A DNA stretch of 26,843 bases from a virus, in IMG/VR virus record IMGVR_UViG_3300017782_003923, positions 1-26,843 of that record; one strand, 5' to 3'. Positions 227 to 26,843 of the stretch are shown here, in pieces. How positions within the stretch are numbered: the first letter of the stretch is position 1; the number at the start of each line of letters is the position of its first letter. A model generated the notes under the pieces. It had not been told where the DNA came from, searched no databases, and saw only the letters and a list, made by a program, of their open reading frames with translations. Both the position numbers and the translations under genes were made by a program.

Positions 227-240
227 TAGTTACTCCTTGC

Positions 241-2459: not shown

Positions 2460-3275
2460 TTATGTTTCCATATCTTGCTCGTCGGCATAGATAATAACGC
2501 ACCTACAATTAATAACATTAGCCGCACCACCTTTAGGATCACCCGCATATGACATTGGCATACCGCCAACAATAAAATCTTCGTTCATATCTACTATTTG
2601 TCCGTTAGCAGAAGCATGAGTAGATCTAGTTCTTGCATCATTAGTAGCAACCCACTTTTTTAACATTTTTATACCTAAGTCTTTTTCAACTTGCTTATGA
2701 TAAGAATCATTAGCAAAAGATGCGGCGTTATGTGTTTCAGTTCTTGATATAAGAGCAGCTCTTGTTCTGCTTATAGGTAAGAACTTGCTTGATACCAATC
2801 TTGCAATTTCATCAAGCGTAAGATTGTCTGCTCTGCCTTGCTCTATAAGATTACTAATTCTATTTGACATTCTTGCTGTTATTCCTGCTAAAACCAGTTG
2901 TCTAGTATTAAAATAATTTTCAACTAGTTCTTCAAAATCTGTGCTTCTACCAAAAACAAAAGCTTCTTGCTTCTGATTTCCAAAATATTTATCTTCGTTA
3001 GATTTATAAGTAACTTGAAATATTTTTCTGTAGTGATTAAGAATTACAGGCATAAATTCTTCATTTAAAGATTGAACTGCTATACCTTCATTGTATATGC
3101 CAAATTCTTTATAAAGATACAGTTGCGTGTTTAAAAATTTTCTAAAAATAGTATTCAGTCTTTTATAAAACCTTTTTTCTAAATTATTTCTAAGTGCAAG
3201 TAGTCTTCTTGTTTCTGCTCTATTGCTTATACTTCTTTGTCTAAAAGAATTAAACCTTTTGCGATTAAGGTTCAT
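2460..3275 (-). CDS. Mu gpF-like head morphogenesis protein
   Basis: This 271-residue protein is of the phage Mu gpF / SPP1 gp7 family of minor head proteins, which sit with the portal in the prohead. The N-terminal 100 residues are basic and helical. The C-terminal half carries the family signature: RTETHNAASFAND, then WVATNDARTRSTHASANGQ, and ending in GGAANVINCRCVIIY. Its ATG overlaps the portal stop codon as ATGA (four bases), so translation is probably coupled. Position next to the portal and before the protease fits the family. In related proteins this fold is sometimes fused to toxins; no additional domain is present here. Confidence 0.9.
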   Translation of the reverse strand: MNLNRKRFNSFRQRSISNRAETRRLLALRNNLEKRFYKRLNTIFRKFLNTQLYLYKEFGIYNEGIAVQSLNEEFMPVILNHYRKIFQVTYKSNEDKYFGNQKQEAFVFGRSTDFEELVENYFNTRQLVLAGITARMSNRISNLIEQGRADNLTLDEIARLVSSKFLPISRTRAALISRTETHNAASFANDSYHKQVEKDLGIKMLKKWVATNDARTRSTHASANGQIVDMNEDFIVGGMPMSYAGDPKGGAANVINCRCVIIYADEQDMET

Positions 3276-5293
3276 GTCTTACTTGATAACGGGTGTCCTT
3301 TAGGAAATAAATCAGTATCGTGCTTTCCACCTCTAAACTTTCCAGTAGATAAGGCTCTTAAAAAACTATTAACTCTAGCATAAGCCCATTGATCAGATGA
3401 ATTGACACTTGGTCTTACGCTTTGTGGATTAGTTCTGTAAGCACCAACACCGCGTCTAAATACAGCTTCTAACATTCTAAGTGTGGCTCTTTTAGTCTTA
3501 GTACTTCCGTGTTTTTCATTATGATCTTTTACTTTACCTTCAAGAGCTGTTTTTACTTTACCTGATAAAGCTTTTTCATCTTCTTTAGATTCTACATGAT
3601 CTTGTAATGCGAATTCTTTATCTTCTTCTGTGATAATTTGTTGACGTTTTCTTTTAGCCCAAGAAAAGCCACTATCACCACCCCAAAGCAACCATGCAAT
3701 CTTTCCTGCACTTGGGTATCCTTCTTCACCTTGTCTAAAGCCTTCTGCTCTTTTATCTACTTCATGCCTACTGAAAAAGCTATACATTCTTTTAACTGTA
3801 GAAATAGATAGCCTTTCTCTTGCTACTAACTGATTTGCACGAGCAACACCAACCATAGTGCCACCCCTATTAAACTTTTTTCTGAGTTCAAGCCCTCTCT
3901 TTGCTTCTTCTGCCATTGAACTGGTAGGAATTGTGTCTATATCAGATAACGCTTTTTCTTCTTGTAATAGAAAATCTATTTCTTTGTCTACATCATCTTC
4001 TTCATAGTCTTCTAAGTCTTCTTCATTAACAGGATTCTCAGGTTTAGGAACATCCTCATCAGATATTGGGAATAAGGTAGCAGATATATATAAATCATCA
4101 GCACCATCAATAGGCTCTAAGCCTATTATCTTTCTTGCTTCATTACGAGTCATAATGCCTTCTCTTACAGCACTAGTTACATTCTCATAAGTCTTCTTTT
4201 TTCTTTCTGCTAAAGCAGGTATTGAATCTATATCAAATTCAAGACTTAGCCTGTCATCAAATAGTGGAACTAACCACTCATTAAGGTCTGAAGCTATTTT
4301 TTGTAAATGTGGAATTATTGTTTCTTCATATAAAGCAAGTCTTGCTTCTGCTACATTGGAATATGTTTGTGCATCAGGAACACCTACCAATTGACTAGGA
4401 ACTCCAAAACACATTGCTATATCAGTAGCTGACATATGCTTCAAGTTTAAAAAATCCATATCCTTAGGACTGAGACCCATTTCTTTCCAGTCAAAATCAC
4501 CTTCTAATAGCATTGGTCTACCTGCATTAGCAGTTCCACTAAATCTATTGTTTAAATCTGTAAGTAGTTGTTGTCTCTGTGATTCAGATAAATTTACATT
4601 AAAACCTGCATCATCTTTTGGCTTAAATATAATTGCTCCACTTGGTCTTGCACCATTGTTAAGCAAATTTACATTATGTTTACTAGACATATTAAATTGA
4701 TCTATTTCAACAGCCGCAGCACTCATAGGCGATAACCCATAATAATCATCTAATGGATTCCATAGCTTTACATGTTTAACCTCACTAAAACCATTATCTT
4801 GGTCTACAAGATAAGTATTTTGCACCCTACCATTAATAATATATTCATATTTTTCAGGTATAGGATTACCACTGCCTTTGATATTTATTCTATCAGGTCT
4901 CAACTGATGTAATTCTTTAGGTGAACCATTTTCTGCACCTATTTTAAGAATGTAAGCATTACCACTTAATAAAACATAACCAAATAAAGAATTAAAAAAC
5001 TCTGAATACGATTGTAAAGGGTTCGGTCTGTTGAGTAAGTCTATGAGTGGATGTTGTTCTATTATTTGATCTCCTGCTTTTATTACAAAGGGTACAGCAG
5101 ATGCTCCTTTAGATATTTCATTAACACAACGATATACGATTGCATTCTTTAAATATCCTTCTTTTGCTAAATCTTGATAAGTGTAATTCTTGGGTTGATC
5201 TGTACCAACACCAAAATAACCCATCATGTTTGATTGTTTGACTTCTTCTTTTTGCACATTAAAAAGTCTTTGAAAAAATGTTTGTTGTGCCAT
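3272..5293 (-). CDS. Portal protein (HK97 type) with two extra C-terminal domains
   Basis: This 673-residue protein would form the dodecameric DNA channel at the head vertex. Residues 1 to about 410 are a typical HK97-family portal (WNPLDDYYGLSPM; a C-terminal portal segment with DIAMCFGVPSQLVGVPD). A very acidic linker (about 411-447) leads to a second domain (about 457-550, GTMVGVARANQLVAR ... GKIAWLLWGGDSGFSWAKR) and a third (about 578-673, TLRMLEAVFRRGVGAYRTNP ... DLFPKGHPLSSK). I recognise both extra segments as conserved pieces seen in assorted phage head proteins, but know no activity for them. Portals of this family are usually 400-500 residues, so the extension is about 250 residues. 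The start overlaps the terminase stop as TAATG. Confidence 0.92.
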   Translation of the reverse strand: MAQQTFFQRLFNVQKEEVKQSNMMGYFGVGTDQPKNYTYQDLAKEGYLKNAIVYRCVNEISKGASAVPFVIKAGDQIIEQHPLIDLLNRPNPLQSYSEFFNSLFGYVLLSGNAYILKIGAENGSPKELHQLRPDRINIKGSGNPIPEKYEYIINGRVQNTYLVDQDNGFSEVKHVKLWNPLDDYYGLSPMSAAAVEIDQFNMSSKHNVNLLNNGARPSGAIIFKPKDDAGFNVNLSESQRQQLLTDLNNRFSGTANAGRPMLLEGDFDWKEMGLSPKDMDFLNLKHMSATDIAMCFGVPSQLVGVPDAQTYSNVAEARLALYEETIIPHLQKIASDLNEWLVPLFDDRLSLEFDIDSIPALAERKKKTYENVTSAVREGIMTRNEARKIIGLEPIDGADDLYISATLFPISDEDVPKPENPVNEEDLEDYEEDDVDKEIDFLLQEEKALSDIDTIPTSSMAEEAKRGLELRKKFNRGGTMVGVARANQLVARERLSISTVKRMYSFFSRHEVDKRAEGFRQGEEGYPSAGKIAWLLWGGDSGFSWAKRKRQQIITEEDKEFALQDHVESKEDEKALSGKVKTALEGKVKDHNEKHGSTKTKRATLRMLEAVFRRGVGAYRTNPQSVRPSVNSSDQWAYARVNSFLRALSTGKFRGGKHDTDLFPKGHPLSSKT

Positions 5294-9051: not shown

Positions 9052-10758
9052 ATGACAATAGAACAAACATTAAATGAAAACAGAATACAACTCAAACATC
9101 ATCAAGAAGGAAATCAAAAAGTTAAATGTCCCCAATGTCAGCCACCTCACAATCCAAAAGATAATCCTTTGTCAGTTACTATTAATGAAGATGGTGTTGT
9201 TTGGAATTGTCATCACTGTGATTTTAAAGGTGGGAAAAAAACTGGAAATATATTTAGACCTTATCAAAAACCTGTTTATGTTGCACCTACAAAATTAGAA
9301 CCAAGACAAGAATCTTTTATGGTTAACTTCTTTAAACAAAGAGGTATAAGTGAATCAACGATAAACGAATATAAAATCTATAATGAAAATAATTGGATTG
9401 GTTTTCAATACTTTGATGAAAATGGAAAATTAACAAACATAAAATATAGAACTGTTGATAAACAGTTTAGACAATCAGCCAACACTAAATCAATACTTTA
9501 CAACTATGACAAAGTTTGCAAAGAAGAAACAGTTATATTTACTGAAGGCGAGATGGATGTTCTATCTTTAGCTGAATGCGGTTTCAATAATGCAACAACT
9601 TTACCTAATGGTGCCCCCAAAGAGTTTAAAGGAGATGAAAAAGACGCTAGGTATAAAGCATTAGAAAACTGCAAACTTAAAGCAAAAAAAATTATTTTAT
9701 TTACAGATAATGATGAAAGCGGTAAAGCATTACACAAAGAATTATTACACAGATTTGGTAAAGATTTATGTTGGTTTGTTCGTATACCTGATAATTGTAA
9801 AGATGCCAATGAAGTGTTAATCAAACACGGTGCTTTAAAACTTAAAGAAATAATAGACAATGCTGAACCATACCCTATAGATGGCTTATATACTGCTAGG
9901 GATTATTTTGCACAAGTTAATGATTTATATGAAGGTAATTATGAAAAGCCATTAGAGATAGGCTTAGATGGTCTAGATGAGATTTATAAACCTATGACTG
10001 GCACGTTTACTGTTATCACAGGTATACCCAATCATGGTAAGTCAGCTTTCCTTGACCAATGCTTACTAAAACTTGCTATAAATCATGGTTGGTCTTTTGC
10101 TCTGTTTTCACCTGAACATTCAACATCAATGCACATAAGAAGATTGGTACAGATGTATTTAGGAAAATCATTTGATGAAGGTTTTTCAAATCGCATGACA
10201 AAAGCTGAACTTAATAAAGGGTTAGATTTTATTCATAAGCATTTTTATTTTATAGAAACTAAAGATAGCATTCCTTCTATTGAATTGATTTTAAATATCG
10301 CCAAGAGTGCTATATACAAGCATGGTGTTAAAGGATTAGTCATTGACCCTTTTAATGAAGTGTCTGCTGTTAGACAAGGAAATCAAAGAGAAGATGAACA
10401 TATCAGAGATTTTATATCTTTATGCAAAAGATTTACTAGAGTATACGAAGTTATATGTTGGGTTATAGCACACCCAACTAAATTACCTAAATCTAATGAT
10501 GGTTCTTACAGTCCTCCTACTGCTTATGACATAAGCGGTGCTGCTCATTGGCATAACCAAGCAGATGCAGTTTTAACAGTACATAGAGACTTTGATGAAA
10601 ACTCAACAAGCGTTATAACTAGAAAAATAAGAGAACAGGGTTTATATGGAAAAATTGGAGAAGCTAAATTTACTTATAATTTAAACACTCATGGCTTCAC
10701 CAAGTATGAAGAAAAAGATGAAGACTGGGACGATTATATATCTAGTTGGGATAATTAA
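9052..10758 (+). CDS. Primase-helicase (zinc finger, TOPRIM, DnaB-like helicase)
   Basis: This 568-residue protein resembles T7 gp4: one chain that makes primers and unwinds DNA at the phage fork. A zinc-binding module is given by C26-x2-C29 and C53-x2-C56. The TOPRIM primase core has E165 in VIFTEGEMDVLSL and D219/D221 in ILFTDNDESGKAL. The C-terminal RecA-like helicase has Walker A GIPNHGKS (324-331) and a Walker B-like VIDPFNEV. I start it at the ATG at 9052 (AGGA eight bases upstream) rather than at an in-frame TTG at 9037 inside the previous gene. Its stop overlaps the stop of the convergent glycosyltransferase gene at AATTAATT. Confidence 0.93.
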   Translation: MTIEQTLNENRIQLKHHQEGNQKVKCPQCQPPHNPKDNPLSVTINEDGVVWNCHHCDFKGGKKTGNIFRPYQKPVYVAPTKLEPRQESFMVNFFKQRGISESTINEYKIYNENNWIGFQYFDENGKLTNIKYRTVDKQFRQSANTKSILYNYDKVCKEETVIFTEGEMDVLSLAECGFNNATTLPNGAPKEFKGDEKDARYKALENCKLKAKKIILFTDNDESGKALHKELLHRFGKDLCWFVRIPDNCKDANEVLIKHGALKLKEIIDNAEPYPIDGLYTARDYFAQVNDLYEGNYEKPLEIGLDGLDEIYKPMTGTFTVITGIPNHGKSAFLDQCLLKLAINHGWSFALFSPEHSTSMHIRRLVQMYLGKSFDEGFSNRMTKAELNKGLDFIHKHFYFIETKDSIPSIELILNIAKSAIYKHGVKGLVIDPFNEVSAVRQGNQREDEHIRDFISLCKRFTRVYEVICWVIAHPTKLPKSNDGSYSPPTAYDISGAAHWHNQADAVLTVHRDFDENSTSVITRKIREQGLYGKIGEAKFTYNLNTHGFTKYEEKDEDWDDYISSWDN

Positions 10759-11531
10759 TTTCTTGAACTGGCGTATGCTTTTTTCCATGATATAACTACG
10801 TCTTTTCTTGAACCCCAACCCCATGCTGTTTTAGTTTCTTTTTCAACAACTCTAACAAAGTCAGGGTGCATAAGTTTCATTTTTTCAGCAGCTTTTGCTT
10901 GTACTTCTTGTGTTCTATATGTTGAACAACCGCCATCAGCGTTTGATTGCACTTGTCCTTGTGCATAATAATAACTAACAATATTTGGAACGCCATTTCT
11001 TAATAGCTGTAAAGCAATATCAAAATCTTCCATGACTTCAACGCGACCATGTTTTGCTCTGCCTTTACATATATTTAAGTCATAAGCCAACACTCTGATA
11101 TATCTTGTATTTTCCTCAAAAAGTTCTTCAACACTATTTCCTACTTTTCTATTATTACCATTTCTATCACTTATACCGCAATGCCCATAACCCATATCCA
11201 TATATCTATCTAGTAATTGAAATATTTTGTAATATTCATTAGGTTCACAGCTTCTTAATTTATGCCCATCACCTGAACGAATATGAAATTTCAAATCATC
11301 ATCAAGCATACATATTCTTGGGTCATCACTTGTGTCCCATATATATTTTCTCACTGCTGAAATACCTTTCAAATGATTTGGAACAACAAGTAAGTTTTTA
11401 TGCACTTTTCTATAATCATCAGCTTCGTTTTCATCTACGACAAGAACGCATTGTTCCCTTAAATCTTCAGGCATAAATCTAAGGGTTCTTTGGTTGTCTA
11501 CTCTGCTTTTAGTCGGTATGAATATCTTCAT
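10755..11531 (-). CDS. Glycosyltransferase, probably for hypermodified DNA bases
   Basis: This 258-residue GT-A-like enzyme starts at the ATG at 11531 (AGGAGAAA upstream), not at an earlier in-frame ATG. It opens with IFIPTKSRVDNQRTL, has GISAVRKYIW, then the metal- and sugar-nucleotide-binding acidic motif MLDDDL (D77-D79), and VEVMEDFDIALQLLRNG with E168-D169 as candidate catalytic or metal residues. This order matches the TET/JBP-associated glycosyltransferases (TAGT) known from phages. It is the last gene of an operon with a TET-like dioxygenase, so the likely reaction is transfer of a sugar onto 5-hydroxymethylcytosine in phage DNA, shielding it from host nucleases. Substrate and sugar are inferred. 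It overlaps the preceding gene by 23 bases. Confidence 0.8.
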   Translation of the reverse strand: MKIFIPTKSRVDNQRTLRFMPEDLREQCVLVVDENEADDYRKVHKNLLVVPNHLKGISAVRKYIWDTSDDPRICMLDDDLKFHIRSGDGHKLRSCEPNEYYKIFQLLDRYMDMGYGHCGISDRNGNNRKVGNSVEELFEENTRYIRVLAYDLNICKGRAKHGRVEVMEDFDIALQLLRNGVPNIVSYYYAQGQVQSNADGGCSTYRTQEVQAKAAEKMKLMHPDFVRVVEKETKTAWGWGSRKDVVISWKKAYASSRN

Positions 11532-12288
11532 AATAATTTCTCCTGAAAATGTCATCTTCTGTGCATTCTGCACCATATTGTATTTCAATAATTTTACATA
11601 CTACGTTATATGGATTGGTTATTTGATGCCATGTTCCTAGTGGTACTATAAAATAATCATGTTTTTGCAAGGTTAATTTTTCATCATCTACATTGTTTTG
11701 ATTATGAAAGATATCGCATTTACCTTGACTGATTAACCATATTTCTGAACGTTTATCATGTTTTTGATAACTCATACCTTTGTTAGGTTCAACAATTAAT
11801 TCTTTTACTTTTACGCCATTATCTTCAAATAAATTAAAATACTCTCCCCATACTTTATTGTATTTTTCGTATTTCCAATCTTTTAAAATCCAAGAAGATG
11901 AGTTTTGTTTTACATTGCCACCAATACCTGATAATAATTCTATACCTGATACTAATATTTCAGGCACGTTATTATTATTTCTATCACCGCCATTACAGAA
12001 TAAAATATTATCGTTAGGATAAAGTTTTTTTATTTCTTCTAATCCATTAATAGCTGTTCCATGTTCATCATTTTCATTTTTAATAACTTGGTCAACATTT
12101 TTTATAGATTCCAATATTTTTTTTCTTTCATCAAAAGGCATAAATGCTTTACCTTTTTTATTTATTAACCAATCATCATCATTCAATAAAATAATAAGTA
12201 TATCGCCTTTCTTTGATGCTTCTTCTATTAATGAAATATGTCCTGAATGTACAGGGTCAAATCCACCACTTATAACAGCAATGTTCAA
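11509..12288 (-). CDS. Nucleotidyltransferase-cupin fusion, sugar-nucleotide supply
   Basis: This 259-residue protein is a fusion. Residues 1 to about 137 are a cytidylyltransferase-like Rossmann domain with the HxGH motif H14-SG-H17 (GGFDPVHSGH), as in TagD and the nucleotidyltransferase half of HldE, and the later segment NGGDRNNN and SSSW in the place of the ISST-type motif. Residues about 145-250 are a cupin like the C-terminal part of type II mannose-6-phosphate isomerase/guanylyltransferase (SYQKHDKRSEIWLISQGK ... LGTWHQI, with H177 and H221). Together they could isomerise or sense a sugar and activate it. The start is a TTG that overlaps the dioxygenase stop as TTGA; AAGGGG lies upstream. 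It precedes the glycosyltransferase. Confidence 0.78.
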   Translation of the reverse strand: MNIAVISGGFDPVHSGHISLIEEASKKGDILIILLNDDDWLINKKGKAFMPFDERKKILESIKNVDQVIKNENDEHGTAINGLEEIKKLYPNDNILFCNGGDRNNNNVPEILVSGIELLSGIGGNVKQNSSSWILKDWKYEKYNKVWGEYFNLFEDNGVKVKELIVEPNKGMSYQKHDKRSEIWLISQGKCDIFHNQNNVDDEKLTLQKHDYFIVPLGTWHQITNPYNVVCKIIEIQYGAECTEDDIFRRNYYEDIHTD

Positions 12289-13202
12289 TTAATTTTATCC
12301 CCTTCTTTTCTATTTTTTGCCCTGTCAAGTTCTTCTTGCATAGTTCCACAATGTTTTATATTTTCTCTGTAATAACAAACAACTGAAATCCTTTCAAAAG
12401 GTGCTTTAGAAGTCATTTTTGTATTCCCATGAACTTCATGCACATCAAAATAACAAACATCACCACTACTTAAATCAAAAGCACAATCATATCTTGGCAT
12501 TACTGTATAACCACCTTCATATTTACCTGCACTTAAAACTGCCAAATTTCCTAATCCTTCTTTTAAGTCACCTGCGTCCGTATGATAAGCGGTTTGAAAA
12601 TTTTTATTAACTGTTACTGTACTAAAAACTGTATCAGTAATAATAAAATCTTTGCTACTGTGGTCTACTACTTTTTTTTGTGCTTCATATCTTTCAGAAC
12701 ATGCTTCTTCAAACATATGACTTATATATTTTAAAAAAGGTATTGAGTTACTAAATAGTTCTCTATTTTTTTCAGTAAATGCTGTTTGTCTACAATAAGG
12801 AAACCTTGTGTTCCTGTCAAAATAACCTGCTATACCTGAATTAACTTGTTTAGCACGCATAACCTTGCTTAATGTTCCGTCTTGTTTTATTTCTCTGTAT
12901 CTGTGACTAGAAATAGTTTTATGTCCAACTTGGTCATCACTATCTAAAGGACCTGCTGCCATACCTCTATTTTCTGATTTAGTTGCTGCTCCTCTAAGAT
13001 TATAATAAGCAGTTTCACATACTTTTTTAGGTATCTTACCTTTTCTAAAAAAGAATAATGGTTCGCCATCTTCAGTATAAGCATTGCAATCATCATTGAT
13101 TAAAATAGAATAATCATCATCTGTAGCATAACGACCTTTTAAATCATTGGCTTCTTCTTTTGTTAATTTGGGTTTTAAATAATATTTAGGTACTTCTTTC
13201 AT
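12285..13202 (-). CDS. TET/JBP-type 2-oxoglutarate/Fe(II) dioxygenase
   Basis: This 305-residue enzyme is of the TET/JBP superfamily, which oxidises methyl groups of 5-methylpyrimidines in DNA. The double-stranded beta-helix core runs from about residue 185 to 280: FSTVTVNKNFQTAYHTDAG gives the iron ligands H207 and D209, GKYEGGYTVMPRY and LSSGDVCYFDVHEVHGN give the distal ligand H258, and R271 (ERISVVCYYR) is placed to bind 2-oxoglutarate. All catalytic residues are present. Phage members convert 5-methylcytosine to 5-hydroxymethylcytosine, which glycosyltransferases then decorate; the neighbours here fit that. It overlaps the ParB-like gene by 17 bases. No methyltransferase is visible in the window. 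Confidence 0.87.
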   Translation of the reverse strand: MKEVPKYYLKPKLTKEEANDLKGRYATDDDYSILINDDCNAYTEDGEPLFFFRKGKIPKKVCETAYYNLRGAATKSENRGMAAGPLDSDDQVGHKTISSHRYREIKQDGTLSKVMRAKQVNSGIAGYFDRNTRFPYCRQTAFTEKNRELFSNSIPFLKYISHMFEEACSERYEAQKKVVDHSSKDFIITDTVFSTVTVNKNFQTAYHTDAGDLKEGLGNLAVLSAGKYEGGYTVMPRYDCAFDLSSGDVCYFDVHEVHGNTKMTSKAPFERISVVCYYRENIKHCGTMQEELDRAKNRKEGDKIN

Positions 13203-13818
13203 GTTCTTTTTTAACAGCTGTAAAAACTATATCTGAATAATTATCCACTTTATATTTTTCTTTAAGGTTCATCAACATGCTTTTAAATTCTTCCAGAGTT
13301 TGAATATCATATAAAAGCATAAATTGTTTTATGTTTGTTTCAGGTATATCAAAATCTGAACTTATGTTAAGGCTTTCAAATTCTTCATCAACTTCAGGTT
13401 CAGCAAATTTTAAAAAGTTTTCTTTAGTGATTTTTTGTATTTCATCAAAATCAAATCCTGTTAATTTTAAATCAAAATCGCCTTCTACTAATTTGTTAAA
13501 TTCTAATGACAAAGATTCAGAGTCCCATTCTGAAAAATCTTGTGCTTTATTATCCATAATTCTGAAAGCGGTTTTTTGTTCCTCAGATAATCCTGAAGCT
13601 ATTTTTACTGGAACTTCATCAATTTCTAATAACTTGGCTGCTTTGATTCTTGAATGACCTGCAAGAATAATCATATCTTCATCTACAACTACTGGTACTT
13701 GCCATCCAAAATTCTTAATGCTTTCAGCAACCCTTTGCACAGTTTTTTCATTTATTCTTGGGTTGTTTTCATAAGGTATTATTTTTTCAACTTTTGTTAA
13801 ACTGGTTATAAATTCCAT
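13186..13818 (-). CDS. ParB/sulfiredoxin-like domain protein of DNA modification operon
   Basis: This 210-residue protein has an N-terminal ParB-like nuclease domain: IIPYENNPRI (about 13-22), SIKNFGWQVPVVVDED, and the signature ILAGHSRIKAAKLL (51-64), followed by MDNKAQDFSEWD. Phages often carry this domain fused or next to DNA methyltransferases, where it may guide the enzyme. The C-terminal part (about 145-210, FMLLYDIQTLEEFKSML) is a helical module common to such proteins. It does not look like a partition protein: there is no ParA and no central HTH. Its start overlaps the regulator stop as TAATG, with GGAG upstream. Its methyltransferase partner, if any, is not in the window. Confidence 0.85.
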   Translation of the reverse strand: MEFITSLTKVEKIIPYENNPRINEKTVQRVAESIKNFGWQVPVVVDEDMIILAGHSRIKAAKLLEIDEVPVKIASGLSEEQKTAFRIMDNKAQDFSEWDSESLSLEFNKLVEGDFDLKLTGFDFDEIQKITKENFLKFAEPEVDEEFESLNISSDFDIPETNIKQFMLLYDIQTLEEFKSMLMNLKEKYKVDNYSDIVFTAVKKEHERST

Positions 13819-14048
13819 TAGTCTCTACTCCATATAGGCGGTGTAACGCCATAAAAGTCATTAGGCTGTACTTTGCCATGAGTGACTTCATATATTATTA
13901 ACATTTCTTCTTTTCTTGGTATTCTTGTACCTAATATCCACTTAGCCAAAGTGCCTTGGGGAACTTTTATTCCTTTAGCCATTTCTATTTCATCAATAAA
14001 AGAACTTTGAGTGTGTTTATTTTCTACAAGATATTTTTTTAATTTCAT
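13818..14048 (-). CDS. Cro/CI-like XRE-family regulator
   Basis: This 76-residue protein starts at the ATG at 14048 (sequence MKLKKYLVENK); an upstream in-frame ATG would push it into the divergent gene and adds a hydrophobic stretch unlike a regulator. It has a Cro/YdaS-like helix-turn-helix (TQSSFIDEIEMAKGIKVPQGTLAKWILGTRIPRKEEMLII in pieces: helix 2-3 around VPQGTLAKWILGTRIP) and ends GKVQPNDFYGVTPPIW, as many phage Cro-like proteins do. It is the first gene of the leftward modification operon and is divergent from the nuclease gene, with an ATTCCAAAAA element in the gap. It may repress both directions and other copies of that element; this is inference. Confidence 0.8.
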   Translation of the reverse strand: MKLKKYLVENKHTQSSFIDEIEMAKGIKVPQGTLAKWILGTRIPRKEEMLIIYEVTHGKVQPNDFYGVTPPIWSRD

Positions 14049-18888: not shown

Positions 18889-19332
18889 TTATATTTTTGA
18901 CCAATCTAATCCTGAAAATAATAATGCTTCTGCTTCCCTTCTTCTTATTAATCCTTGCAATACTTTTCCACCTGCTTTATTCCATCTTTTAATCTGTGCA
19001 GGTACTTCTTCGTATTCACCTTTATTTAAAACTTTAATCATAGTGGATGCATTAAGATTTGCACCACCTAAATTAAATGTCCATGATACAAGAGCATCAA
19101 ATTGATGTTGATGCAGTGGAACTGTAACAGCTTTTTTTACTGCATCTTCGTAAACTTCTAAATCAGTTAATAATATAGAGTCTGCTTCTTCTTGTGTTAT
19201 TTCTTGATGTTCTTCTACAAATTTTGTATGCCCGTATCCTATAGTCCAAACATCTGCGGCACATTTGTATGATTTAAGTTCGCACCCTTCAAACTTCTTA
19301 ATAAGTGCTATTCCTTCTTGTGATATTTTCAT
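18889..19332 (-). CDS. Endolysin (GH24 phage lysozyme) with Cys in catalytic triad
   Basis: This 147-residue muramidase degrades the host cell wall at the end of infection. The start at 19332 (MKISQEG) is chosen because GGGGG lies six bases upstream; a longer in-frame reading overlaps the nuclease gene. The catalytic region is KKFEGCELKSYKC ... WTIGYGHT: E15, eight residues, C24, five residues, T30, the E-8-(D/C)-5-T pattern of P22/R21-type lysozymes with Cys in the Asp place. DALVSWTFNLG and IKRWNKAGGKVLQGLIRRR are the other family blocks. There is no signal peptide or SAR segment, so a holin must release it. It is four bases after the nuclease gene. Confidence 0.93.
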   Translation of the reverse strand: MKISQEGIALIKKFEGCELKSYKCAADVWTIGYGHTKFVEEHQEITQEEADSILLTDLEVYEDAVKKAVTVPLHQHQFDALVSWTFNLGGANLNASTMIKVLNKGEYEEVPAQIKRWNKAGGKVLQGLIRRREAEALLFSGLDWSKI

Positions 19333-19336
19333 ATTT

Positions 19337-19729
19337 TTACCCCCATGTTCCGTCTTCTCTGACTTTGGCTGTTTTTTTACCACCCCAGTATTCAACTGCG
19401 TGTCCTTCTTGCACGAGGGTTTTACAAATATCTTTTTTACCTTCTGTAAAAGGTGTCGCGAGAATCCGTCCATATTTTCCTTTTCCATGTGATTGAATTA
19501 CTAATTTATCAGCACATAGTTCTTTTAACCTTTCTTTGGCTTTTAGTCCCAGTGCTTTTTCTTCTAAATTTCTTGTGCGTGATTCAGGTGTATCAATACC
19601 TGCTAATCTGCATCTTTGTTTATGTAACTTAACGTCAAAGCCTAAATCTAAAGTCACGTCTATGGTGTCTCCATCTATTACCCTTTCTAGTATAGCGTTA
19701 TATACAAATGGCGTGACTAATTCAGACAT
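19337..19729 (-). CDS. Staphylococcal nuclease-like (thermonuclease) protein
   Basis: This 130-residue protein is an SNase-fold nuclease. Its motifs are RVIDGDTIDVTLDL (D19, D21), QRCRLAGIDTPESRTRN (R41, D46, E49), LKAKERLKEL and GKYGRILATPF (R88), so the expected calcium-binding and catalytic arginine and acidic residues are present, followed by LVQEGHAVEYWGG. It has no signal peptide and would act on DNA or RNA in the cytoplasm. Lying between the holin candidate and endolysin, it may break down host nucleic acid late in infection or lower viscosity at lysis. The ribosome site is poor; the gene starts six bases after the holin stop and is probably coupled. Confidence 0.88.
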   Translation of the reverse strand: MSELVTPFVYNAILERVIDGDTIDVTLDLGFDVKLHKQRCRLAGIDTPESRTRNLEEKALGLKAKERLKELCADKLVIQSHGKGKYGRILATPFTEGKKDICKTLVQEGHAVEYWGGKKTAKVREDGTWG

Positions 19730-19735
19730 AGCGTT

Positions 19736-19900
19736 TTATTGCTTGGCTTTCCCTATATTGAGTGCCAATAATTCTAAGATTTTATATAACTTAGCAATCA
19801 TTGCATCATCTTTAGGTGTTGGAGTTAAAGCACAGATTATGGATGCACCGCAAACAACACCTGTGATAATTCCTAGCCATTCTCCTATCATTCCCATCAT
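19736..19900 (-). CDS. Small membrane protein, holin candidate
   Basis: This 54-residue gene was found by reading the minus strand between the spanin and nuclease genes. It begins with two ATG codons (19898-19900 and 19895-19897) after AGGAGATATTA. The sequence has a hydrophobic stretch (MIGEWLGIITGVVCGASIIC, about 4-23), then ALTPTPKDDAMIAKLYKI and a second amphipathic part LELLALNIGKAKQ with a basic end. The TPTPKDD and LALNIGKAK pattern is one I know from small holin-like proteins of marine phages. It stands beside the signal-less endolysin, which needs a holin. One long or two short membrane segments are possible. Confidence 0.75.
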   Translation of the reverse strand: MMGMIGEWLGIITGVVCGASIICALTPTPKDDAMIAKLYKILELLALNIGKAKQ

Positions 19901-19941: not shown

Positions 19942-20328
19942 TTATTTGTTATCTGACACCTTTTCTTTATCTGTATCTTCTTTATCGTATTCTCTGTAAA
20001 ACTCAATAATATGCAAAGTATCTTTAATATATCTTTTTATTTCTGCCATATTATTAGATAAGTTTTCATAATCTTTTGTTGTTAATGAATAATACGCGGT
20101 GTTGGGTGCAGAGCCATTTTCTAAATCAGAAAGGTACTCTTTCATTATATGAGGGGTTAAAATTTCCCAATCAATATCCGCCAAGTTTAATTCTATTGGG
20201 AGTGGCGGGTGATATATAGGGGACGGCTCTGCAATCGTTATCACTTCAACAGGTTTAGTTTGCGTTGGTATCATAGAACACGCTGTGAAGTAGAAAAGGG
20301 TAAGACTAGCTATTAGTAGATTCTTCAT
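19942..20328 (-). CDS. Outer-membrane lipoprotein, o-spanin (Rz1-like)
   Basis: This 128-residue protein starts at the ATG at 20328, inside the i-spanin gene (23-base overlap); the TTG before it is less likely. Residues 1-16 are a lipoprotein signal (NLLIASLTLFYFTAC), with C17 as the lipidated Cys. A proline-rich segment PSPIYHPPLPIELN follows, then WEILTPHIM, YYSLTTKDYENLSNNMAEIK and a charged end. Nested or overlapping i-spanin and o-spanin genes, with a Pro-rich lipoprotein, are usual for Rz/Rz1 pairs, though this one is longer than lambda Rz1. It would join with the i-spanin to fuse inner and outer membranes at lysis. Confidence 0.8.
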   Translation of the reverse strand: MKNLLIASLTLFYFTACSMIPTQTKPVEVITIAEPSPIYHPPLPIELNLADIDWEILTPHIMKEYLSDLENGSAPNTAYYSLTTKDYENLSNNMAEIKRYIKDTLHIIEFYREYDKEDTDKEKVSDNK

Positions 20329-20710
20329 CAAACTGGTTAGGGTTAGTTAGTGTTATTAAATCTTCTTTTACTTGCTTAGTACCTTTATTAACTATTTTTT
20401 CTATAAGTTTAGGTTTAGCTAAAGCAAGATTATCAAGATCATGTTTTGCAAAAGTATTCTTTAGTTTATTTACTTCTCGTTGTGATTCTCTATTTTTTTC
20501 TGTAAGAATATTTAATTGTTCTTGATTTTGTTTTTGTTTTGCAAGGTGTTGCTTTATAGATTCGTTTTGTTGCTCTATTGAGTTTTCTAAAGCTATTTGG
20601 TTACCTTTTAGAACTGATATTTGATCTAAAAGCCTATCAATGTACCAAGCACTTCCTGATGCTGTGACAAGCAACAGACCACCTAGTATTAATGATAATT
20701 TAAATCCCAT
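20306..20710 (-). CDS. Inner-membrane spanin (Rz-like)
   Basis: This 134-residue protein has an N-terminal membrane anchor (LSLILGGLLLVTASGSAWYI, about 5-24) and a long periplasmic coiled coil (about 30-100, rich in Gln, Glu, Lys and Asn with heptad Leu/Ile) ending in a charged tail. That is the standard architecture of the i-spanin Rz. It overlaps the cyclase gene by 22 bases upstream and the o-spanin gene downstream. Its place in the lysis cassette with a lipoprotein partner, holin candidate and endolysin supports the call. Confidence 0.85.
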   Translation of the reverse strand: MGFKLSLILGGLLLVTASGSAWYIDRLLDQISVLKGNQIALENSIEQQNESIKQHLAKQKQNQEQLNILTEKNRESQREVNKLKNTFAKHDLDNLALAKPKLIEKIVNKGTKQVKEDLITLTNPNQFDEESTNS

Positions 20711-22467
20711 GTATACACCTGTAATTTATCTTTTTTGCCTTTAGCTTTTATTGGTTTTAAAGGTATCAAATTAAATTCTATACCATTTTGTGTTGATTGA
20801 CCAATTAACAAATCTACACCTGCATTTTTTGTTCCTGATTCTAATCTAGCGGCAACATTAACTGCATCACCTATAGCTGTGTAATCAAATCTATTTTCAC
20901 TCCCCATATTTCCAATAATTGCATATCCAGTATTAATGCCTATGCCTATGGTTACTGGTTCAATATTTTGTTTTGCAAGAAGTATATTTAGTTCATGCAT
21001 ATTTTTTTGTATATCTAACGCACATTCAAAAGCTTTTTCTTCATGGTTTTCTAGATCTAATGGTGCATTAAAGATAGCCATCATGGCATCACCAATATAT
21101 TTATCTACCATTCCTCCGTGTTTTTGCACTGCTTGTTGTTGTGCGGTTAATGCTTTATTCATTATGTATGTAACTTGTTCAGGTTCTAATTTTTCAGATA
21201 GTGCTGTGAAACCTCTTACATCTGTAAATAAAAATGTTGCATATTTTTTTTCTCCACCAAGTTTTAAAAGTTCAGGATTATCTTGTAATTTTTTAATTTG
21301 TCTTGGATCTATATAATGTTCAAATTGTTTTTTTATTTCTTGTCTTAACCTGTACTGTTCTCTGAACCTTATATAAAAAGCTATAGAGCCTGTAATAAAC
21401 TGTGAAATTAGTGACCAAGTAACATCAACCAATAATCCTCTGTGGATAAGTCCATAACCTGTATAAGCTGTGCATAACATTATTAAGATAGCTGTTGTAA
21501 TACCCCAAGTTATACCTAAAGCGTTTAATACAAGCCATATTAGACTTACTGTAAGCAAAAATATAAGTATTTCTAAAGCTATAGCCCAATCAGGTATATA
21601 TGGGCTATCTTGTATTAAGATTGATTCTGCTAAAGCTGTTTGAATTTTATGTGGTTCTAGTAAACCTACAGGAGTAGCTATTTGTGGCATAACACCATTA
21701 GCTGTAACTCCTATAAATACAAATTTACCTTCTACATTCATTTCTTGTAAGTCTGTTTGTGGAGTATCTACCCAACTTATCCATTTTCTACCAAGACTAT
21801 CAGTTTTAACTGGTGGTATTCCTCTAATTGATATTTCCTCTATACCATTATCATTAGTTTTTATAATGTAAGTTCTTACATCAAATAATGCTTTATATAT
21901 TTGTGTGCCAAATGAAGGTATCCATTCATTTTCAGGTGTGCTTACTAAAAGGGGTATTCTTCTAACCAGTTGATCTATTTCAGTGGGAGCAATGGCTAAA
22001 CCCTGCAATGTAGTATTTGATAAGGTGTTCAGGTTTTCCTTGACTCCCATACTTACTATACCACTAACATCATTGCCTTTGACAACTGTTCCTGTAGATT
22101 TAGGGTAATTGTTTTTGCCATCTTCAAACATAGCGATTACAGATGGTGCATAGCCTAATGTAGTTGCAAAGACCTTATCTCCACCCATTCTATCTGCTTG
22201 TGGAAAGGACATAACCCAACCAACCCCAATAGCACCACGATTAATAAGTTCTACTTGTATTTCTGCTAATCGTCTTCTTGGTAGAGGATAACCACCTTCG
22301 TTTTCTATATCTGCTTCTGTAATATTTAGGATTACAAAATTTCCTGATGGTTCATATTTTTTGACTAAAGCATCAAATGTTCTTAGTTTTATTATTTCTG
22401 TAGGTGTGCTTTGAAATATAAGCGGTAAAGATAATATTAATAATATTGGTACTATAAGTTTTTTCAT
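20689..22467 (-). CDS. CHASE2-domain membrane adenylate cyclase
   Basis: This 592-residue protein has a membrane or signal segment (3-20), a periplasmic CHASE2 sensor (about 25-290; FDALVKKYEP, ILNITEADIENEGGYPLPRR), three membrane helices (about 293-365), a short linker, and a class III cyclase domain (about 405-590). The metal ligands are D416 in FTDVRGFT and D460 in DKYIGDAMMAIFNAP; K456 and T530 (YTAIGD) occupy the adenine-recognition places, with N537 and R541 for catalysis. All residues needed to make cAMP from ATP are intact, of the Lys/Thr bacterial type. Its start overlaps the FecR-protein stop (TAATG). It is followed directly by spanins. It might link an outer-layer signal to cAMP in the infected cell. 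Confidence 0.92.
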   Translation of the reverse strand: MKKLIVPILLILSLPLIFQSTPTEIIKLRTFDALVKKYEPSGNFVILNITEADIENEGGYPLPRRRLAEIQVELINRGAIGVGWVMSFPQADRMGGDKVFATTLGYAPSVIAMFEDGKNNYPKSTGTVVKGNDVSGIVSMGVKENLNTLSNTTLQGLAIAPTEIDQLVRRIPLLVSTPENEWIPSFGTQIYKALFDVRTYIIKTNDNGIEEISIRGIPPVKTDSLGRKWISWVDTPQTDLQEMNVEGKFVFIGVTANGVMPQIATPVGLLEPHKIQTALAESILIQDSPYIPDWAIALEILIFLLTVSLIWLVLNALGITWGITTAILIMLCTAYTGYGLIHRGLLVDVTWSLISQFITGSIAFYIRFREQYRLRQEIKKQFEHYIDPRQIKKLQDNPELLKLGGEKKYATFLFTDVRGFTALSEKLEPEQVTYIMNKALTAQQQAVQKHGGMVDKYIGDAMMAIFNAPLDLENHEEKAFECALDIQKNMHELNILLAKQNIEPVTIGIGINTGYAIIGNMGSENRFDYTAIGDAVNVAARLESGTKNAGVDLLIGQSTQNGIEFNLIPLKPIKAKGKKDKLQVYTWDLNYH

Positions 22468-23585
22468 TATTCGCTTTGCGTAATTGTAATTACAGAATCA
22501 CTTCCACCATTAATTTTTATAACATTAGATACACCATCTTGAATAATGATAAGGGTATAGGCATCATCACCATTTAAATCTAATCTAGCAGTATTGTTTA
22601 CATTCCTTCTCAGACTTACAACATTACCTGCTATCAAAGTTGTGATTTGTGTTTCTGTATCTTGACCTATTTTTGTTCCTTGTATATCAACACCTCCTAC
22701 TACAGCTAAAACATCTTCTTGTTTGCTTACTGCAAGTGCATCTAAGACATTTAACAAATCTTCAAGATAGTTAGTATCAAGATAATTAATATCTAATTCT
22801 GTGAACTCTAATTCATCTTGACCAAAAAAATCTTCATCAAGATAATCAATATCTAAATCATTAAAATCTAAAATATTCTGTTGTGAATCTTGTGCAACTT
22901 CTTCTGTAAAACTTAGTTCTTTTTTGGGGGGTGTCACTATTAGCATGTTATCAATAATATCTAATGTTAAATCTAGGATTACTGGTTCACTTGGTTTAGA
23001 TTCAAAGACATTTACTGTGGTGGCTTGAAATGGTTTATTAAGCAAAACTGTACCCATAGCAGTAACTACTTCTATCTCACCACTAGACAAGCCGAGAGCA
23101 TCAGGGAGCAGTATTATCAATGACCTTCCTAGTTCATCTACAGTAGCTGTAAAATCTGTACCTCTGATTGCGATATTTGCTGTAGGTGTTTTAAGTTTTA
23201 TATTTTGTTTATCTATTCTATTAAGATTGCCTGTAATAAATCTTGCTGTGCCTAATCCAAAGGTAAGAGCCATCTTTGATTTAGATGGGTCAGGGTCATA
23301 GATATATTCATCTATTAAGAGTTGTGAGTGTTCAGTTAGTTTGACTGTAGAATCGTCTAAAAACTTAATAGCCATTCTTCCATTAGAAGTAATAGCTTCA
23401 TCATTGCTTTGTATAGCAAATTTTAGATTTGCATTATAGGGTTTATCTCTTATTATTTGTGCTGAACCATTTAGTTCAGATATATCACCAATATCAACAG
23501 CCTGTGCTTGTACCTTGATCGTTTTGGATAACACAAACAGTAGAAGAAGAATTACCACCCACTGATATGATTTTGAGCCAGTCAT
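22467..23585 (-). CDS. FecR-domain protein with curlin-type C-terminal repeat
   Basis: This 372-residue exported protein has a signal peptide (WVVILLLLFVLSKTIKVQAQA, about 9-29) and a FecR domain (about 38-190) with the family motifs TSNGRMAIKFLDDSTVKL, LTFGLGTARFITG and TPTANIAIRGTDFTATVD. An acidic, duplicated DIDYLDEDFF/DINYLDTNYL segment (about 245-277) follows. The C-terminal 50 residues carry a curlin-like unit: IIIQDGVSNVIKIN has the QxGxxN signature (Q349-N354) and the chain ends in VITITQSE. In bacteria, FecR proteins of this type are often next to CHASE2 cyclases. It overlaps the curlin gene by 92 bases and couples to the cyclase gene. CAGGAC precedes the start. It is likely periplasmic or surface-exposed. 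Confidence 0.88.
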   Translation of the reverse strand: MTGSKSYQWVVILLLLFVLSKTIKVQAQAVDIGDISELNGSAQIIRDKPYNANLKFAIQSNDEAITSNGRMAIKFLDDSTVKLTEHSQLLIDEYIYDPDPSKSKMALTFGLGTARFITGNLNRIDKQNIKLKTPTANIAIRGTDFTATVDELGRSLIILLPDALGLSSGEIEVVTAMGTVLLNKPFQATTVNVFESKPSEPVILDLTLDIIDNMLIVTPPKKELSFTEEVAQDSQQNILDFNDLDIDYLDEDFFGQDELEFTELDINYLDTNYLEDLLNVLDALAVSKQEDVLAVVGGVDIQGTKIGQDTETQITTLIAGNVVSLRRNVNNTARLDLNGDDAYTLIIIQDGVSNVIKINGGSDSVITITQSE

Positions 23586-24225
23586 TGTCCTGTGTGCTTA
23601 ATTGTTGAATATTAAATGTTCTTTGACCACCTGTATGATCTAAATAGAAATATCCACCTGCTGAAGCATTAACACCAGTACCTGTATAGGTAACTGTATT
23701 GTCAGAACCATCAATATCCATATAGTTAGTTGCACCATCAATATTTATGTTTGATGTGATCGTATTATTAGAACCTTGAATAATCCAATCTAAGTTAAGA
23801 CTTGCCGCTAAAGCAGTAGTTCCTTGATTCAACGTAAATGTATTAGAAGCACCAGTAACTGCAACATTATGATCAGAACCATCAGCACCAAAACTATTAG
23901 TTGGGTCTACTTGGATAGTAAAAGAATTAGTTGAGCCAGTAAAATTATACAAACCTGTAAAGTTATCAGCGTATATATCACCTAAAAATTTATTGGTAGC
24001 ACCAATCATATTGATATCTAGTGTCATGCTATTACCATCTAGATCAAAGGGTGTAAGATCACCTGCTGTTGTATTTAGACCACCTATGATATTAGATATA
24101 CCTAATTGTTCTAAATCTATATTTGCACCTGTTCCTGATTGATCTACATATATTTCGTTATCAGCCGCGTATGTTGGCAAGACAATCATCATCGCAATCA
24201 GGCTTAGTAATTTCAGTTTCTTCAT
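23494..24225 (-). CDS. Exported curlin-like repeat protein
   Basis: This 243-residue protein has a signal peptide (KLLSLIAMMIVLPTYA, cut near residue 20). Right after it come two curlin-type units: DQSGTGANIDLEQ and LEQLGISNIIGG, with Q29...N35 and Q40-N45 in the QxGxxN pattern. The rest is a regular beta array of G-(S/A/T)-x-N-x-(F/I/V/M) units roughly 17-25 residues apart (IGATNKF, TGSTNSF, TGASNTF, QGSNNTI, DGATNYM, DGSDNTV). Two Cys stand at the end (TVCVIQNDQGTSTGC), where QNDQGTS again resembles a curlin repeat. It is probably a substrate of the CsgG pore rather than CsgA itself. It overlaps CsgG by 65 bases; GGAG precedes the start. Confidence 0.8.
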   Translation of the reverse strand: MKKLKLLSLIAMMIVLPTYAADNEIYVDQSGTGANIDLEQLGISNIIGGLNTTAGDLTPFDLDGNSMTLDINMIGATNKFLGDIYADNFTGLYNFTGSTNSFTIQVDPTNSFGADGSDHNVAVTGASNTFTLNQGTTALAASLNLDWIIQGSNNTITSNINIDGATNYMDIDGSDNTVTYTGTGVNASAGGYFYLDHTGGQRTFNIQQLSTQDNDWLKIISVGGNSSSTVCVIQNDQGTSTGC

Positions 24226-25027
24226 ATTTCCAAAAACTCCTATCGTATCCGATATTTATAAGTTCCAAGACTGCACCTTCTATAGCTTTCATCAATGCAA
24301 TCGTTGTTGACTCGTTTCTTGAATTACCTAATTCAATTTCTACGAGTTCAGTACCCATCTCTATGAATCTAAAAACATCTTCTGATTTACCATAACTAAA
24401 TATGGTTTTTTGGCTTAATACTTCTATAAGTATCTCACCTGTTGCAACTGATACCATACGAAGACTAACTGTTATATTGTCTTCTCTGTATTGAATGCTT
24501 TTACCTATTCCTAGATACCTAGCACCAACACCACCAGTTGACAAGTTACTATCATAGCTTATTACAGCACCTTCTAGCAATACACCTGCAAAGAGCAGTG
24601 GTGGTACGTTCTTTTCTTCACCATCTTTTGCAAATTGTTCTCTTGCTGATCTAATAAGTTGTCTTTCTTTTGTTAGGTTATCTAAGCCAACCCTTTCTAC
24701 TACTCTAAAAAATTCACCATTACTAGAATGTTTTAATGCTCTTATTAATAATGTGTAGGGTGCTTGTGTTACAGCAGTAGAAAATAAAGCAAATTCACTG
24801 TTACTTTTTCTTTGTCCTGTTTGATCTGTAAATGCTGTGGGATATACAGCTACTATAGGTTGTACTAAAGGTTTCTGTACATTAGCTAATTCTTTAGAAT
24901 GAAGTTGATCAATTCTTACTATGTCGTTATTTGCTCTTTGGTCGTATGTATCTTCATACTGGTCAAAAATTGAACAACTAGAAAGTAAAAGTACCGATAG
25001 GAATCGTAATTTCTGTGACTGTGCCAT
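24161..25027 (-). CDS. csgG: CsgG-type curli secretion channel lipoprotein
   Basis: This 288-residue protein matches CsgG over nearly its whole length. A lipoprotein signal leads to C18 (LLLSSC). Blocks shared with E. coli CsgG, from memory, include TDQTGQ, FSTAVTQ (F82 aligned with the constriction Phe), a RQLIRSAREQ-like helix, then GGVGARYLGIGKSIQYRED, NITVSLRMVSVATGEIL, KTIFSY and VFRFIE. The transmembrane-hairpin part is thus present, and mature length (271) is near that of the E. coli channel (262). The constriction residues Tyr and Asn of E. coli appear to be Ser and Leu here. It should form an outer-membrane nonameric pore for unfolded curlin-like proteins. It overlaps csgF by 50 bases. 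Confidence 0.95.
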   Translation of the reverse strand: MAQSQKLRFLSVLLLSSCSIFDQYEDTYDQRANNDIVRIDQLHSKELANVQKPLVQPIVAVYPTAFTDQTGQRKSNSEFALFSTAVTQAPYTLLIRALKHSSNGEFFRVVERVGLDNLTKERQLIRSAREQFAKDGEEKNVPPLLFAGVLLEGAVISYDSNLSTGGVGARYLGIGKSIQYREDNITVSLRMVSVATGEILIEVLSQKTIFSYGKSEDVFRFIEMGTELVEIELGNSRNESTTIALMKAIEGAVLELINIGYDRSFWKYEETEITKPDCDDDCLANIRG

Positions 25028-25520
25028 CTGCTTCTGTTATTTTTAGGGTTAATGTTACGCCATCACTTGTATATTCTATTATATTTCCTTCTAGTTCAAT
25101 AATTCCTGAATCAGAAGGTGTTTCACCAAATAAATTACTAACAAGTTGTCTTGAAAGTTCAGCATAGACTCTACTTTCTAAGTTACGCATAAATCTAGCT
25201 AAAGTACTATTTTCTTTTTCTCTTTCTATTTCTTCTTGTAAGGCTTTGATTTCTTCTTTAATAGTAAGCTTACGATTAAACTCTTGATTTTCTATAGTTA
25301 GATAATGACTAGATGTATTTATGCCATTAAAAGATGGTGATTTAAACTTATGTACTATTTGATCTGCTGTAGCACTTTGTATAAATATTCCTAAAATAAG
25401 AATTATGCCTATTATAGATACCCATTTGATAATAGTATCTTTTTCAGCTTCTTCTTTTCTTCTAAGTAGTTCAGCTTTACTTGGTCTACCTCTTTTTTTC
25501 TTAATCTTTTCTTTGGTCAT
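24978..25520 (-). CDS. csgF: CsgF-like curli assembly factor with basic N-terminal extension
   Basis: This 180-residue protein begins at the ATG at 25520 (MTKEKIKKKRG; AAAGG upstream), rather than at a TTG six codons earlier. Residues about 7-30 are very basic with an RGRPSKAELLRRK motif, followed by a hydrophobic segment (WVSIIGIILILGIFIQ, about 37-52) and ATA before DQIVHKFKSPSFNG, which matches the mature N-terminus of CsgF (TFQFRNPNFGG in E. coli, from memory). The rest (SHYLTIENQEF, LARFMRNLESRVYAELSRQL, ITIPIGTFTF) fits the CsgF helix and C-terminal beta part. CsgF caps the CsgG pore from outside and helps nucleation. The cytoplasmic extension is unusual: E. coli CsgF has a short signal. 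Confidence 0.85.
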   Translation of the reverse strand: MTKEKIKKKRGRPSKAELLRRKEEAEKDTIIKWVSIIGIILILGIFIQSATADQIVHKFKSPSFNGINTSSHYLTIENQEFNRKLTIKEEIKALQEEIEREKENSTLARFMRNLESRVYAELSRQLVSNLFGETPSDSGIIELEGNIIEYTSDGVTLTLKITEADGTVTEITIPIGTFTF

Positions 25521-25851
25521 CTCTATCCGCCTTTGCAATTTTACTGCTATCTATTAGTTGTGGGACACCAAGAATAGTCTTAATAAGAGTATCTTGTCGT
25601 ATGATCTCATTGTCTAAACTTCGCACCCTATCAATTAATGCTACCAAAATACCATGTTGGGAATCAAGTTTTGTGCCTAGTCTATCTTCAATAGCAGATA
25701 TTTGTTCTGCTACTTTTTGATCTACAACATCAAGTTTAGTTTCCATACCATCAACAATACGCATGATAAGTTTATAAATAAACCAACCAAGTCCAAGTGA
25801 AGCGGCAATAGGAAATCCAACCTCTTGGATTATCTTTATTGCAGAATCCAT
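25501..25851 (-). CDS. Small membrane protein with coiled coil
   Basis: This 116-residue protein has one N-terminal hydrophobic segment (VGFPIAASLGLGWFIYKLIM, about 11-30) followed by a charged coiled coil (about 35-100: GMETKLDVVDQKVAEQISAI, then LVALIDRVRSLDNEIIRQ) and a basic end. Similar proteins are common in marine phages near tail-fibre and lysis genes and are sometimes called holins of the BhlA kind. With a second candidate (19736-19900) closer to the endolysin, the role is unsure: holin, antiholin or membrane anchor. Its end overlaps the CsgF gene by 20 bases, and its start lies next to the previous stop. Confidence 0.72.
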   Translation of the reverse strand: MDSAIKIIQEVGFPIAASLGLGWFIYKLIMRIVDGMETKLDVVDQKVAEQISAIEDRLGTKLDSQHGILVALIDRVRSLDNEIIRQDTLIKTILGVPQLIDSSKIAKADRDDQRKD

Positions 25852-26299: not shown

Positions 26300-26308
26300 T
26301 TTATTCTC

Positions 26309-26843
26309 CTATAAAGTTGTTATTATAAAACTTAGTAATTCATTATATCTTACACCAAGTCTTGTTTGTTCTACACCATCATCATCAGTCCAAGTGCTAG
26401 ATATAAACATACCATAATCACTTGCATCTAATCCTTCTGCTTCAAATGCATCTTGTAAGTCTTGTGCTATAACTCCAAAATGATATCTAGCTGTTTCATC
26501 AGAATCAGAATTATCATCTTTTTCTGCTACTGAATCTTGCCATCTAAATCTTCTTATTAAACCTTTACATGCTGTAGCTACTCTTTGCTCTGCTTCTGTT
26601 AAGGCTTGTATGTCTTGTTTTAAATTTCTATCAGAAGTTTGGATAGTGCCATTGGTTGCATAGATATCATCAAATCTTACTGATGAGCTTCCAAGATCAA
26701 TACCATTATCACTATCTGCACCATGTTCATTACAAGGTAGAATAGCTTTATAAGTAATATAAGATTCAAATTTAAGACCAGTGCTAAAAGTTGCTATAAA
26801 TATATTAGATTCTGTTTGATCTACATGACCTATTTGACCTATA
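26309..26843 (-). CDS. Tail fibre/spike C-terminus with S74 chaperone domain, partial
   Basis: The gene enters from the right edge; 177 residues of its C-terminus are visible. The last 108 residues are an intramolecular chaperone of the peptidase S74 (endosialidase) type: TSDRNLKQDIQALTEAE with the Ser-Asp-x-x-x-Lys self-cleavage site (Ser codon 26633-26635), then FRWQDS, YHFGVIAQDLQDAF and LGVRYNELLSFIITTL. This domain folds the trimeric fibre and then cuts itself off. Just before it, SSSVRFDDIYATNGTIQTSD is the typical fibre-to-chaperone junction. The part outside the window should carry the trimeric shaft and receptor-binding region. It ends ten bases before the next start. Confidence 0.92.
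   Translation of the reverse strand, partial: IGQIGHVDQTESNIFIATFSTGLKFESYITYKAILPCNEHGADSDNGIDLGSSSVRFDDIYATNGTIQTSDRNLKQDIQALTEAEQRVATACKGLIRRFRWQDSVAEKDDNSDSDETARYHFGVIAQDLQDAFEAEGLDASDYGMFISSTWTDDDGVEQTRLGVRYNELLSFIITTL

Follow-up and report, generated by a model that had tools for sequence, protein, structure and literature searches.

The DNA analyzed here (the window) is a linear IMG/VR virus record of 26,843 nucleotides (26.8 kb, about 32% GC) of a marine phage; it carries a curli-type gene cassette and, as its last member, a gene for a membrane-bound nucleotide cyclase. On the minus strand the cassette runs in the order single-TM coiled-coil gene, csgF, csgG, curlin-repeat gene, fecR and cyclase gene, after which the spanins follow. 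The first gene (25501..25851) encodes a 116-aa coiled-coil protein with one transmembrane (TM) helix and keeps this position in sipho- and myophages. It is followed by the curli assembly factor CsgF (24978..25520; PF10614, E 5e-16), the start of which we read as the ATG at 25520, the listed open reading frame (ORF) opening at a TTG at 25538, and by the outer-membrane curli secretion channel CsgG (24161..25027; PF03783, E 1e-47), which has the lipobox LLSSC and matches NF011731 at 4e-50, under the curated cut-off of that model. The remaining genes encode a secreted curlin-repeat protein with conserved repeat columns, a candidate CsgA/B fiber subunit (23494..24225), a FecR-domain protein (22467..23585; phrog_37870, E 1e-66) that overlaps the start of the cyclase gene by 1 base, and the cyclase (20689..22467). 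By the listed ORF bounds all junctions from the coiled-coil gene to the spanin pair overlap, by 1 to 92 bases, and because every junction overlaps, the run from cassette to spanins can be read as a single unit, one that continues from a Peptidase_S74-like fiber end at 26303-26843, as judged from the sequence and one relative.

Several of these products are strongly diverged or have unusual features. The curlin-repeat protein of the window gave no Curlin_rpt match in a profile search; 23 of 37 relatives match this profile at a permissive limit of E up to 1 (best 6e-5). Its Q/G/N repeat columns (Q-x-G-x-x-N) are invariant between siphophage and myophage copies of about 27% identity, and its structural model is all-beta (pLDDT 82), with no confident fold match in the PDB. 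We regard it as a candidate diverged curlin subunit, which is how PMC9599517 reads its homologues. The FecR protein comprises an N-terminal signal or anchor, a periplasmic FecR domain (residues 66-151) and a C-terminal stretch with the curlin-like motif QxGxxN, present in 116/131 copies of the window lineage and 0/34 myophage copies among the matches listed. The coiled-coil protein contains a motif like ALIDRIRxLDNDIIR and has a weak holin match (phrog_1296, E 0.01), and Pfam detected no kinase domain in it. As a homologue occupies the same cassette position in pelagiphage HTVC008M, we suspect that this gene corresponds to the 'histidine kinase' named in PMC9599517, a match by position rather than by sequence.

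The neighboring genes on the 3' side are associated with lysis. An inner-membrane spanin (Rz-like; 20306..20710, minus strand; phrog_739, E 1.5e-12), which lies outside the cassette, shares 22 bases with the 3' end of the cyclase gene and is followed by an outer-membrane spanin (Rz1-like; 19942..20331, minus strand; phrog_812, E 4e-16), a nuclease (SNase) and a phage lysozyme (endolysin; 18889..19488, minus strand; PF00959, E 7e-49). The first-pass annotation had placed lysis genes directly after the cyclase gene, which is true of the window, with the overlapping spanin pair first and the nuclease and lysozyme further on. Between the outer spanin and the nuclease, a small ORF (about 19735-19900, minus strand; MMGMIGEWLGIITGVVCGASIICALTPTPKDD...) with one membrane helix is a candidate holin. 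No Rfam match was obtained in the window, and riboswitch control as in methylophage Melnitz is not supported; no tRNA or tmRNA was found, promoter-like matches fell below the shuffled expectation and terminators were near expectation. Elsewhere on the minus strand are DNA hypermodification genes (10755-13202), comprising a TET/JBP 2OG oxygenase (PF12851, 4e-24), a TET-associated glycosyltransferase (PF20691, 3e-23) and a cytidylyltransferase/cupin fusion, and a portal gene (3272-5293) with a C-terminal extension of about 200 aa that is 58% identical to part of the 'major capsid' of Roseobacter phage CRP-831. No isolate phage matches the window closely in DNA sequence, and the structural genes of the window resemble those of phages of unrelated hosts.

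The cyclase ORF is uninterrupted from ATG to stop and encodes 592 aa. Residues 14-307 match CHASE2 (PF05226, E 3e-23) and residues 409-585 match Guanylate_cyc (E 1e-20), each by a wide margin over the Pfam cut-off, and the protein also matches phrog_35576 (E 1e-117). Hydropathy and the structural model agree on four membrane helices, one at the N-terminus (about 2-23) and three after CHASE2 (295-316, 318-342 and from 350 on). The protein thus has the layout of a CHASE2 receptor, in which an N-terminal TM helix precedes a periplasmic CHASE2 domain (about 24-285), a three-helix TM region (295-370) and a cytosolic output, here the cyclase domain (405-590). An AlphaFold2 model built on an alignment of 51 sequences (mean pLDDT 88) shows the same succession of TM helix, mixed alpha/beta periplasmic domain, three TM helices and cyclase domain. 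The modeled cyclase domain superposes on the CyaC and CyaB structures with Z of about 26.5-27 and rmsd of 1.6-1.9 A, the superposition on CyaC covering 187 residues at Z 27.0 and 1.7 A. The first-pass annotation of an intact CHASE2 adenylate cyclase with a full sensor is therefore borne out, and the structure prediction it suggested returned the class III fold; its count of three membrane helices omitted the one before CHASE2.

The active site is complete. D416, K456, D460, T530, N537 and R541, which had been named as catalytic residues, all occupy those positions and align in a phmmer alignment with the corresponding residues of Pseudomonas aeruginosa CyaB (3r5g); they include the two metal-binding Asp (D416, D460) and the transition-state residues N537 and R541 of class III enzymes. 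In this class adenine is recognized by Lys paired with Thr, Ser or Asp, and guanine by Glu paired with Cys or Gly. The K456/T530 pair equals the K/T of CyaB, while the aligned chain of guanylyl cyclase Cya2 (2w01) has E and G; on the K/T pair a guanylate cyclase was rejected, and the domain is classed as IIIb-like. Among the matches listed, D416, K456, D460, N537 and R541 are unchanged in 147/147 covering loci of the siphophage lineage, where position 530 is Thr or Ser, and in the myophage set D416, D460 and K456 are invariant in 82 covering loci, as is R541 (81-82 loci). Loss of the metal-binding Asp in related phages, proposed earlier as evidence against a functional enzyme, was looked for, and both were kept in the 147 lineage and 82 myophage loci. 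Among the phage copies listed, that of Melnitz (11917-13965) alone departs elsewhere in the active site, having Ser at the catalytic Asn (N537S) and Asp at the adenine position (T530D), and its activity or specificity may differ. Against ten relatives, the window has dN/dS values of 0.08-0.18 in its cyclase domain; in CHASE2 they are 0.10-0.21. Taken together, the sequence data support a class III cyclase that is intact, membrane-bound and kept by selection and whose substrate residues suit ATP, and the protein should be a cAMP-making membrane enzyme.

A scan of IMG/VR with the cyclase gave at least 596 confirmed relatives, the best 80 of which are 68-86% identical. Linkage was counted for best matches on contigs reaching far enough, and the counts refer to loci rather than independent viruses, some contigs appearing in more than one scan. 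Among the matches listed, the cyclase of window-lineage loci is preceded by FecR (47/47), curlin (40/40), CsgG (30/30) and CsgF (28/28), and loci searched from FecR have the cyclase downstream in 51/51. Loci of the HTVC008M type likewise have FecR (35/37) and CsgG (23/24) near the cyclase among the matches listed. A 53-kb relative of the window, G393, encodes a tape measure protein, a distal tail protein and the central tail fiber J, and the window lineage is therefore a third phage type, a siphovirus, with the cassette. The same relative carries a phosphoadenosine phosphosulfate reductase gene (8-1138, minus strand; phrog_2302, E 8e-56).

The cassette itself is known from other phages. PMC7029224 reports csgF and csgG in pelagimyophages, and PMC9599517 describes, for podo- and myophages, a pelagiphage curli cluster with curlin, FecR, a 'histidine kinase' and adenylate cyclase, the last three being absent from bacterial curli operons, and assigns the cassette an alphaproteobacterial origin. 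The window agrees with the order in PMC9599517, namely csgF, csgG, curlin gene (in the window, one without a profile match), then fecR and cyclase. HTVC008M (KC465899) has the order csgF-csgG-curlin-fecR-(second curlin)-cyclase, and its cyclase is homologous to that of the window over 95% of the length at 33% identity; the window, a siphovirus-type phage, differs in lacking the second curlin gene and in having the cyclase directly after FecR and before the spanins. Melnitz has the same cassette with an annotated cyclase (31% identity to that of the window) that differs in a longer C-terminus (683 aa) and in the two substitutions described above. The accessible parts of PMC7029224, PMC9599517 and PMC9004378 contain no mention of a siphovirus with the cassette, and no paper on such a lineage was found in the mostly freely accessible literature. 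The window cyclase is thus the final gene of a phage curli cassette that had been described before, and it is new mainly as a member of a siphovirus lineage; the first-pass annotation recognized the intact enzyme and missed its place as terminal gene of this type VIII secretion cassette with FecR.

When 28 phage and 80 cellular CHASE2 cyclases were placed in one tree, a branch with SH-aLRT 99 set all phage copies apart, and this clade adjoins mostly alphaproteobacterial cyclases over long branches; the phylogeny proposed to find a bacterial donor thus gave a neighborhood and no particular donor. The bacterial loci come from the 80 best matches listed, so that a rare exception may exist. Among them, FecR lies within 8 kb of the CHASE2-cyclase in 25 of 65 testable loci, the two genes being adjacent and co-oriented in Paracoccus and Ruegeria, and curli genes lie within 8 kb in none of the 65. 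A profile search found neither FecR nor a CHASE2-cyclase near 7 alphaproteobacterial curli loci; CsgF is above cut-off in only 5 of 385 alphaproteobacterial genomes, and CHASE2, where present there, lies elsewhere. Because the bacterial FecR/CHASE2 loci lack curli genes and the sampled curli loci lack FecR and CHASE2-cyclase, the union is seen only in phages and is an arrangement without bacterial precedent in the sampled bacteria.

The bacterial pairs of Paracoccus aminophilus, Ruegeria and Ensifer share CHASE2, membrane helices, a class III cyclase and an adjoining fecR with the window; they differ in their low identity (about 26-31%), in an extra CHASE2 loop and a C-terminal tail of about 90 residues, both absent from the window, and in having no curli genes nearby. 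CyaD1, CyaD2 and CyaK of Sinorhizobium meliloti are also CHASE2 cyclases; such enzymes raise cAMP on a signal via the outer-membrane beta-barrel NsrA and drive a CRP-family regulon (PMC13001267). In Burkholderia, a biofilm-linked operon, in which the insertion was in the response regulator gene, combines FecR with a CHASE2 kinase (PMC5192318). The class IIIb enzymes CyaB of P. aeruginosa (3r5g) and CyaC of Spirulina platensis (1wc0-1wc6) share the cyclase fold (Z about 26-27) and the substrate and metal residues, but have different regulatory domains. From these comparisons it seems that in the phage module curli genes have been combined with a bacterial FecR/CHASE2 sensor pair, which agrees with the alphaproteobacterial origin proposed in PMC9599517.

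We consider it slightly better than an even chance that the cyclase provides the regulatory output of a curli module encoded by the phage. In such a module CsgG and CsgF would form an outer-membrane channel exporting the curlin-repeat protein, periplasmic FecR would inform the CHASE2 domain of the cyclase about the status of export or assembly, and the TM helices would relay this signal to the cytosolic class III domain, which would dimerize and make cAMP from ATP. The circuit may act late in infection, a timing proposed because the genes overlap and sit in an apparent late (tail-to-lysis) operon. No cNMP-binding protein (cAMP receptor) was found in 19 related phage records, and any target would therefore be a host protein, presumably a host cAMP receptor. 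The regulatory-output reading is favored by the cassette linkage and overlaps, the HTVC008M and Melnitz cassettes, the bacterial FecR/CHASE2 pairs, the adenine pair, the invariant site and the dN/dS values. Against it stand the 19 records, the missing PDB match of the curlin protein, the lack of bacterial precedent and the account in PMC9004378 of Melnitz cultures without cell clumping, together with its argument that the pore was repurposed. A more specific version, a viral relay that leads from the outer membrane into the cytoplasm and in which CsgG and FecR report curli export to the cyclase so that cAMP rises only during export, is tentative and would more probably fail than hold; the FecR tail with a curlin-like motif in most of the window lineage is consistent with it.

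The strongest alternative is that cAMP alone serves host takeover through CRP-type control and that the adjacent curli genes are shared cargo. An intact, conserved active site under purifying selection and the S. meliloti regulon (PMC13001267) fit this reading, but the cyclase is never apart from FecR/Csg genes in testable window-lineage relatives among the matches listed and the 19 phage records encode no cNMP-binding protein, and we consider it unlikely. The possible effects on CRP-controlled genes named in the first-pass annotation belong to this reading. Somewhat less probable again is that the cyclase and the CsgG pore set the time of lysis, the lysis-pore role proposed for CsgGF in PMC9004378 being extended to the window. 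The spanin start overlapping the cyclase stop, and a lysozyme downstream in 38/41 testable window-lineage relatives among the matches listed, point in this direction; in HTVC008M-type loci, however, window-like lysozyme (0/56) and inner spanin (0/66) are absent among the matches listed, a search by similarity that unrelated lysis genes would escape, and in HTVC008M a tail gene on the opposite strand adjoins the end of the cassette. Because the myophage-type loci lack it, the lysis link belongs to the gene order of the window lineage and not to the cassette, which weakens the suggestion in the first-pass annotation that cAMP or the sensor is tied to late timing through the lysis genes, although these are indeed its neighbors in the window.

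A sensor or scaffold that keeps the cyclase fold without catalysis is very improbable: the two Melnitz substitutions suggest that activity may be lost or altered in one lineage, but the catalytic residues of the 147 siphophage-lineage loci listed vary only between Thr and Ser at 530, and the cyclase domain has the low dN/dS given above. Least probable of all is interference with nucleotide signaling, in which a Pycsar-like or decoy cyclase would work against host anti-phage signaling or as part of it, since the PADLOC PycC matches (best E 3e-29) are confined to the generic class III domain that these models share, the neighbors are fecR and a spanin rather than a Pycsar effector, CHASE2 is the sensor at the N-terminus, and K/T is the adenine pair; membership in Pycsar was rejected.

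The cyclase is real, intact and conserved, yet it is part of a known phage module and not a stand-alone host-takeover enzyme. Curli cassettes of this kind are widespread among marine viruses, and there is open dispute over what they do: fibers and sibling capture, an uptake pore and a lysis pore have all been proposed. The occurrence of the cassette in a siphovirus, a third type of phage, and invariably alongside FecR and an intact cyclase among the loci listed, argues that the signaling arm is part of its function and not baggage, and the question of what the cassette does becomes testable with one short cassette.
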